From: a bacterium
Lineage (GTDB): Bacteria; CSSED10-310; JAJRTK01
Direction: 5' to 3'
DNA length: 5,865 nucleotides
Assembly: GCA_024278345.1 (NCBI GenBank)
Contig: JAJRTK010000461.1
Location: 1-5,865 of the forward strand
Both the position numbers and the translations under genes were made by a program. The stretch's first letter is position 1, and each line of letters begins with the position of its first letter. Positions 4,720-5,865 of this stretch are shown here, piece by piece. The notes beneath the pieces are model-generated. The model was not told the DNA's origin, did no database searches, and worked only from the letters and a program-made list of their open reading frames with translations.

Positions 4720-4931
4720 GAGCAGCGAGCAATCCACCCATGAAAAACGTCTATGACCAGCTAGGCAAACTAGCCTTCCAGGTTCTTCTGGACCTGCCGG
4801 TCCCGGAAGAGCCGAACAGGAGGTCTTGGCCGAAGTCCAGGCCATCGACTTATGGTTCGAGGGGCCTCGCCATCCAGAAGCATTGAGGGCCCTGGGCCTC
4901 CTGGGACGCCTGGCTCGGAAGGCCACCATCT

Positions 4932-4939
4932 TCGAGTTC
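4932..4939 (+). repeat. Left target-site duplication TCGAGTTC
   Basis: Eight bases immediately outside the left inverted repeat are identical to the eight bases immediately outside the right one (5205-5212). Extending by one base breaks the match on both sides, so the duplication is exactly eight bases. This is the signature of a transposition event. Confidence 0.9.
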
Positions 4940-4962
4940 GGGTATCCACGCAAGGCGGGACA
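4940..4962 (+). repeat. Left terminal inverted repeat (23 bp)
   Basis: It begins GGGTATCCACGCAAGG and ends GCGGGACA. It is the exact reverse complement of 5182-5204; the next base inward (4963 T against 5181 C) does not pair. Confidence 0.95.
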
Positions 4963-4990
4963 TTCCCGGGACTGTGGAATCGCAAGCGTC

Positions 4991-5038
4991 CGGGCAACGC
5001 CTCGCTATCGCTCGGCGGGTCACGCTGCGCGTTACCCG
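4991..5038. repeat. Interior imperfect hairpin 1 of the element
   Basis: CGGGCAACGC (4991-5000) pairs with GCGTTACCCG (5029-5038) with one C-A mismatch, enclosing a 28-base loop. It lies wholly inside the mobile element. The in-frame stop that truncates the host frame starts one base further on (5039). Confidence 0.6.
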
Positions 5039-5040
5039 TA

Positions 5041-5089
5041 GGTGGTCCGGGGATTCCATCCCCTGGCAGGGCTTCGCCCCGCACCCACC
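5041..5089. repeat. Interior branched hairpin 2 of the element
   Basis: GGTGG (5041-5045) can pair with CCACC (5085-5089), closing over two small hairpins: GGGGAT/ATCCCC (5049-5054 with 5058-5063) and GGGC/GCCC (5069-5072 with 5076-5079). Together they suggest a three-way junction. The phrase GGGCTTCGCCCCGCACCCACC resembles REP-like palindromes I recall from intergenic DNA of several phyla; that likeness is from memory. Confidence 0.5.
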
Positions 5090-5107
5090 AGGGAGCGCGC
5101 TCATCTT

Positions 5108-5131
5108 CCCGTTGCAACGAAGGGCAACGGG
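5108..5131. repeat. Interior hairpin 3 of the element
   Basis: CCCGTTGC (5108-5115) and GCAACGGG (5124-5131) are perfect complementary 8-bp arms around an 8-base loop, AACGAAGG. Confidence 0.7.
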
Positions 5132-5181
5132 ATCCCAGCCCACATTTTTGTACGCTACGCGTTTTCCTTTTTTTTCTGTTC

Positions 5182-5204
5182 TGTCCCGCCTTGCGTGGAT
5201 ACCC
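5182..5204 (-). repeat. Right terminal inverted repeat (23 bp)
   Basis: It is the exact reverse complement of 4940-4962 and ends GCGTGGATACCC, directly followed by the second TCGAGTTC copy. A T-rich tract precedes it. Confidence 0.95.
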
Positions 5205-5212
5205 TCGAGTTC
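5205..5212 (+). repeat. Right target-site duplication TCGAGTTC
   Basis: It is identical to 4932-4939. From here the host gene frame resumes as TTC TAC TCC TCC, using the duplicated bases as codons Glu-Phe. Confidence 0.9.
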
Positions 5213-5648
5213 TACTCCTCCGCGCCCGGCATCGACCAGATGAGGCAGTGCATCGCCAAGCACCACGTCTGGCACCTCCATCGGCGGCGACAATCCAAGG
5301 AGGCCCGGGATCCCGACTTTCCACAGATGTGGCTCCTCTCCGCCGGGCGGCCCCAAACCCTTCTTTCTCCAAGCCTACGGCGGAGAAGCGACCGAATATG
5401 GGCCCGGCGTCTACCGTTTCGCAAGCTCCGGCTATGAAGAAGGCATCGTCGTCCTTTCGGAACTCCCGGAGACGGAGGAAACCCTCTTTCTCCGCCTCCT
5501 AACACGCGGAACCAGGCTCCGCAAGGCTCTCCGGGACCTTCTTTCCCTTCCCTGGGACAACCAACTCCGCCAAGAGCGGTTGGACATCTTGAAGCTCTTG
5601 CAATTCAAAATCGGCAATTTTCATCGGGGAACACCAATTTGTCGGTGA

Positions 5649-5865
5649 GCAGCAGTAGGGGCGGCTCCAGAGCCATCCGTTTTTATCGGTGACGAGCAAT
5701 TGAGCAGCGAGATAGGGAGTTAAAAGGGGACCTATCAGATCCGGTTGACAACATCACCGCTGGGGCAGGCCTCCTTCCCGGCTCCGTGCAGCCCGGAGGG
5801 CGCTACACCGGCAAGATGCCGGTGCCACCGTTTCGGCGAAGAAAATTGTAAAGCAAAAACACGAC
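5649..5865. other. Gene-free right flank
   Basis: After the pseudogene stop I see no reading frame with convincing protein character on either strand to the window end. The stretch holds a weak GGCTCCAGAGCC palindrome (5663-5674) with a T run at 5680-5684, and a stronger hairpin at 5806-5824. It probably combines decayed DNA after the dead gene with an intergenic repeat before the next, unseen gene. Confidence 0.5.
5806..5824. repeat. REP-like hairpin CACCGGCA-AGA-TGCCGGTG
   Basis: Perfect 8-bp arms CACCGGCA and TGCCGGTG surround the loop AGA. The core CCGGCAAGATGCCGG is a motif I recall as recurring between genes in Verrucomicrobiota and some other GC-rich bacteria, often within GGGCGCTAC...GCCACCG as here. 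That recollection cannot be verified from one copy. No T tract follows, so it is not a standard terminator. Confidence 0.55.

Follow-up and report, generated by a model that had tools for sequence, protein, structure and literature searches.

A 265-bp bacterial MITE whose terminal repeats point to DUF6399 proteins as its probable transposases

The 265 bp at positions 4940-5204 of the window are a real MITE, an element of an ordinary kind, and a comparison of its ends with those of insertion sequences (ISs) in other bacteria makes it highly likely that it is a non-autonomous DNA transposon moved by a DUF6399 protein, which would act in trans as a DDE-type transposase. The window is the whole of contig C402, 5,865 nucleotides long, in a genome of 6.06 Mb (550 contigs, 88% complete). 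The parent family is well supported and apparently unreported, being new to the libraries searched, a set that did not include ISfinder.

The initial annotation described a 265-bp element with perfect 23-bp inverted repeats, an exact 8-bp duplication and no transposase, and on direct reading each of these proves exact (Table 1). A repeat search gives the same result: the arms are 100% complementary, lie 219 nt apart, and form the longest perfect inverted repeat of the window. The ORFs of the element were examined, and none is transposase-like.

Table 1. Features of the MITE and its insertion site, in window coordinates
Feature	Position	Strand	Basis
Left target-site duplication, 8 bp, TCGAGTTC	4932..4939	.	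Sequence; same spacing rule, with other sequences, in 16 further exact-duplication copies
Left terminal inverted repeat (T1 end), GGGTATCCACGCAAGGCGGGACA	4940..4962	+	Repeat search, genome end counts, end conservation
Interior, non-coding, palindrome-rich, with exchangeable modules	4963..5181	+	Alignment of copies
Right terminal inverted repeat, fully complementary to the left arm	5182..5204	-	Repeat search, genome end count
Right copy of TCGAGTTC	5205..5212	.	Sequence
Decayed host gene, interrupted by the element; limits approximate	4741..5640	+	Joined-flank reading frame; uninterrupted homologue

The inverted ends recur in this genome far beyond chance. At up to three mismatches the T1 23-mer occurs 413 times in the 6.06 Mb, and its reversed control not once; allowing two ends per copy, this corresponds to at least about 200 copies. 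According to the initial annotation, a lack of any other copy would have counted against the element, and the genome instead holds, besides these ends, dozens of relatives of the 265-bp sequence. It had also named copies with different duplications as support. These are indeed present: in 0.7 Mb of contigs, 17 copies have exact target duplications of various sequences (ten of 8 bp, seven of 9 bp), and in six more the duplications differ by one base. The T1 end is strongly conserved over 153 instances, and in the contigs sampled no transposase gene is enclosed by paired T1 ends. The varied duplications and many dispersed copies, together with the short length, the lack of a transposase ORF and the terminal repeats, are the features of a MITE. 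A further feature, ends common to an autonomous element, is found at the family level, in DUF6399 ISs elsewhere and in an IS fragment in this genome with three mismatches; the searches gave no autonomous element with an identical end. The MITE may currently be active. It is missing from all 40 other genomes searched as relatives, of which only seven belong to the same phylum. Sequence searches found neither the full element nor the T1 end in plasmids, and the T1 end is absent from viral contigs.

The initial annotation held that the boundaries and the empty site could both be deduced to the base. The boundaries stand as given. The empty site is deduced from the joined flanks, and not from orthologous empty DNA; a distant protein homologue has no interruption at this point. 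When the flanks are joined with one copy of TCGAGTTC, a single frame crosses the junction, with ...LARKATIFEF on one side and YSSAPGIDQM... on the other. The homologue, a 471-aa frame from another genome in the phylum, has 44% identity and aligns through the insertion point without an insert. The host gene is already decayed, and has two further frame changes besides the element.

An end-pattern scan with GGGTATCCACNNAANNCGGGA over 84,980 species genomes gave, among the matches listed, T1-class ends in the proteobacterial MAG A14_bin-2326, Competibacteraceae, Crenothrix and three cyanobacteria. Matches in Bacillota and Elusimicrobia had no paired ends and were judged to be due to chance. The T1-class elements of Nodosilinea, Crinalium, Competibacteraceae and the proteobacterial MAG carry proteins with a DUF6399 domain (PF19936). 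This domain was found in all six of the end-scan genomes searched, which are phylogenetically non-independent, compared to three of 386 genomes drawn by kinship (the present genome included) and none of 14 control genomes; for the enrichment in end-scan genomes, Fisher p is about 6e-12.

Two of the elements have the organisation of an IS, with one transposase-like gene, inverted ends and a target duplication. The element of Nodosilinea LEGE 07088 (L160:238-1987) is a complete IS of 1750 bp, in which the 534-aa gene is intact and the exact 8-bp duplication is TCCCGATC. That on the Crinalium plasmid pCRI9333.07 (L154:1767-4271) is complete at 2505 bp, also with an exact 8-bp duplication, CGTTTTCT, and contains one small gene besides the transposase-like gene, on the opposite strand to it (L154:1956-2405). 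The Competibacteraceae element is 1724 bp long, with a frameshifted gene containing the DUF6399 domain and no duplication. In A14_bin-2326, a copy at a contig edge retains its two ends, and its 536-aa gene is intact; most of the MITEs examined in that genome lack an exact duplication. In Crenothrix polyspora, T1-type ends are found in a tandem array (L136:1474-2775) with a spacing of about 193 bp, seven of them in one orientation. A short repeat, CCATGAAAGTACATGGTTAAATCC..., breaks the T1-type ends of DUF6399 IS remnants at L043 (about 1900-2070) and L152 (about 1400-1560).

In the present genome (88% complete, 550 contigs), DUF6399 occurs four times, in all cases partial, and the search found no intact gene. 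The initial annotation had suggested that an active transposase with the same ends may exist here. What was found is the family in other genomes, and in this one only broken DUF6399 pieces. The best IS end in this genome is at C188, where 56 bp separate the C-terminus of DUF6399 from the outer edge of a T1 end, GGGTATTCACTTAAGGCGGGACA; this has three mismatches with the MITE end. We infer that a DUF6399 IS copy with the exact MITE end, GGGTATCCACGCAAGG, is, or once was, present in this lineage.

After a second copy, at C80, comes an end of another type, GGCCTTGGTCATAGTACCGACCA (T2). T2 also delimits DUF6399 genes of Thiodictyon, of Competibacteraceae and of G003, a relative from the same phylum. 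There are 264 T2 ends in this genome. The T2 MITEs here are about 200 bp long and have 8-9 bp duplications in two clean cases; their ends are GGCCTYGGTCATNGTACCGGCCA, as at L056:335-535 and L042:6478-6676. One T2 MITE interrupts an ISL3 transposase gene, and its duplication there is GTTCAAGCG.

A T1 or T2 end is found just past the domain in 18 of 23 DUF6399 loci, 17 of them at 52-71 bp, compared to four of 2300 shuffled segments, with end patterns that were partly shaped on some of the 23 loci. With the patterns fixed beforehand, an end is present at 5/5 DUF6399 loci in two genomes that were not chosen by their ends. We incline, by a modest degree, to a broader proposal, in which cyanobacteria, gammaproteobacteria and this small phylum contain an unrecognised IS family with DUF6399 proteins as its transposases. 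The family would have two branches with unrelated ends (GGGTATCC... and GGCCTTGGTCAT...), and both would drive MITEs here, with hundreds of ends and an exchangeable common palindromic interior.

Since the ends of the MITE match those of DUF6399 elements, DUF6399 is very probably the enzyme that moves both it and them. We propose that a DDE-type transposase of this family, supplied in trans, would bind the 23-bp ends and cut out or copy the element, which would then be joined to a target cut with a stagger of 8 (sometimes 9) bp. Repair of the gaps at this cut would generate the duplication of TCGAGTTC. Catalysis by the DUF6399 protein, and its action in trans on the MITE, are both probable readings of the sequence comparisons.

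Pfam lists the C-terminal DUF6399 domain as a family of unknown function, and the N-termini of the proteins are HTH-like. Six DUF6399 proteins have invariant DETF, SD, DLFH and EGRNG motifs, and D142, D196 and E449 (numbered as in the A14_bin-2326 protein) are invariant in all six. These three residues are the putative DDE triad, in which a long insertion precedes the Glu. A structure prediction for the N-terminal ORF of the Competibacteraceae element reached a pLDDT of 41, too low to confirm a fold. There is no NCBIfam equivalog for DUF6399; no relatives were found in viral contigs or PHROGs, and none with a solved structure was found by sequence. A literature search gave no paper on DUF6399, and no description of this family in reports on ISs or MITEs.

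Duplications of 8-9 bp are also left by the ISL3, ISKra4, IS256 and ISAs1 families, and for ISL3-family ISs the length is 8 bp. The MITE might therefore be moved by one of these, with a merely coincidental likeness of its ends to those of DUF6399 elements. Fragments of ISL3, ISKra4-like and ISAs1 elements are present in this genome; however, a T1 end lies beside none of them, the ISL3 copy here seems to end in GGCTCTTCGCC, and IS256 (Transposase_mut) was not found in the genome at all. Coincidence would also have to account for the nearly fixed distance of the T1 and T2 ends from the domain at 18 of the 23 DUF6399 loci, and we regard this explanation as improbable. Profile searches with DDE_Tnp_1, Transposase_mut, ISL3 and ISKra4 as candidate partners gave no T1-ended element. 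Membership of the ISKra4 family was rejected on the ISKra4-like fragments in this genome, which have no T1 ends, and that of IS256 on the lack of any Transposase_mut match. ISKra4-like transposase fragments at L099, L100 and L102 are below the model cut-off. DUF6399 is also not assigned to ISL3: the ISL3 model gives a weak alignment with one DUF6399 protein, which scores 15.4 bits where the curated cut-off is 180, and DUF6399 differs from ISL3 in its ends and in having about 250 residues from the second conserved Asp to the Glu.

The interior of the MITE has no clear similarity to DUF6399 ISs beyond the ends, so that deletion within a known IS copy does not by itself explain the MITE. This point, the three mismatches of the best IS end and the search that found no intact DUF6399 gene in this genome count against the DUF6399 reading. 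The interior is GC-rich and palindromic, and parts of it are common to T1 and T2 MITEs, for example CGCGCAGCGCACAAA(A/G)ATGTGGGTCC. A single strand of the window copy folds strongly (z = -7.8). Such a stable fold, and a palindromic interior common to a second MITE family, are what would be expected of a selected structured RNA or regulatory cassette, in which the inverted ends serve for RNA folding. However, the consensus fold of the copies has no compensatory change in any pair, and the element has no match to Rfam, promoters or terminators. Moreover, duplications of many sequences and the insertion within a gene require transposition, which makes a selected cassette very unlikely.

The alignment of copies shows that they are mosaics, with three versions of the middle hairpin and several of the right arm in many combinations; the window copy has one of each (CCCGTTGCAACGAAGGGCAACGGG and ...TTTTCCTTTTTTTTCTGTTC). 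Copies therefore do exchange modules, as would be expected if recombination or gene conversion, more than transposition, had spread them. Recombination does not, however, give rise to duplications of 8-9 bp when a copy appears at a new, unrelated site, and of the explanations considered here we give this one the least credence. Transposition by DUF6399 proteins remains the preferred explanation.

Known prokaryotic MITEs include Chunjie of Geobacter, QMITE1/2 of Coxiella and Correia of Neisseria (PMC10969869). The present MITE resembles these in being shorter than 500 bp and lacking a transposase gene, and in its inverted ends, duplications, many copies and size variants, and differs from them in its end sequence, its GC-rich palindromic interior with exchanged modules, and its link to a DUF6399 transposase. 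A MITE in hupL of Candidatus Thiomargarita nelsonii has a 10-bp direct repeat and a 19-bp inverted repeat and matched 260 of 439 contigs; its authors did not find its parent IS in ISfinder (PMC4853749). Like the window MITE it splits a gene.

A Pfam family of unknown function thus gains a probable function, and an orphan MITE a parent family. Parentless MITEs elsewhere, such as that in Thiomargarita hupL, can now be tested against the DUF6399 family, and both ends can be used with the DUF6399 profile to search repeat-rich draft genomes. Of the contig ends sampled here, 58 of 106 run into a T1, T2 or T3 repeat (36, 13 and 15, respectively), a share that is biased upward because most of these contigs had been selected as carriers of T1 ends; these repeats therefore explain much of the fragmentation of the assembly. 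The T3 repeat is also seen in the window, where a truncated copy with the end GGGACCTATCA(A/G)AT occupies positions 5727-5865 and runs off the end of the contig. T3-type ends occur 33 times in 0.7 Mb of contigs.
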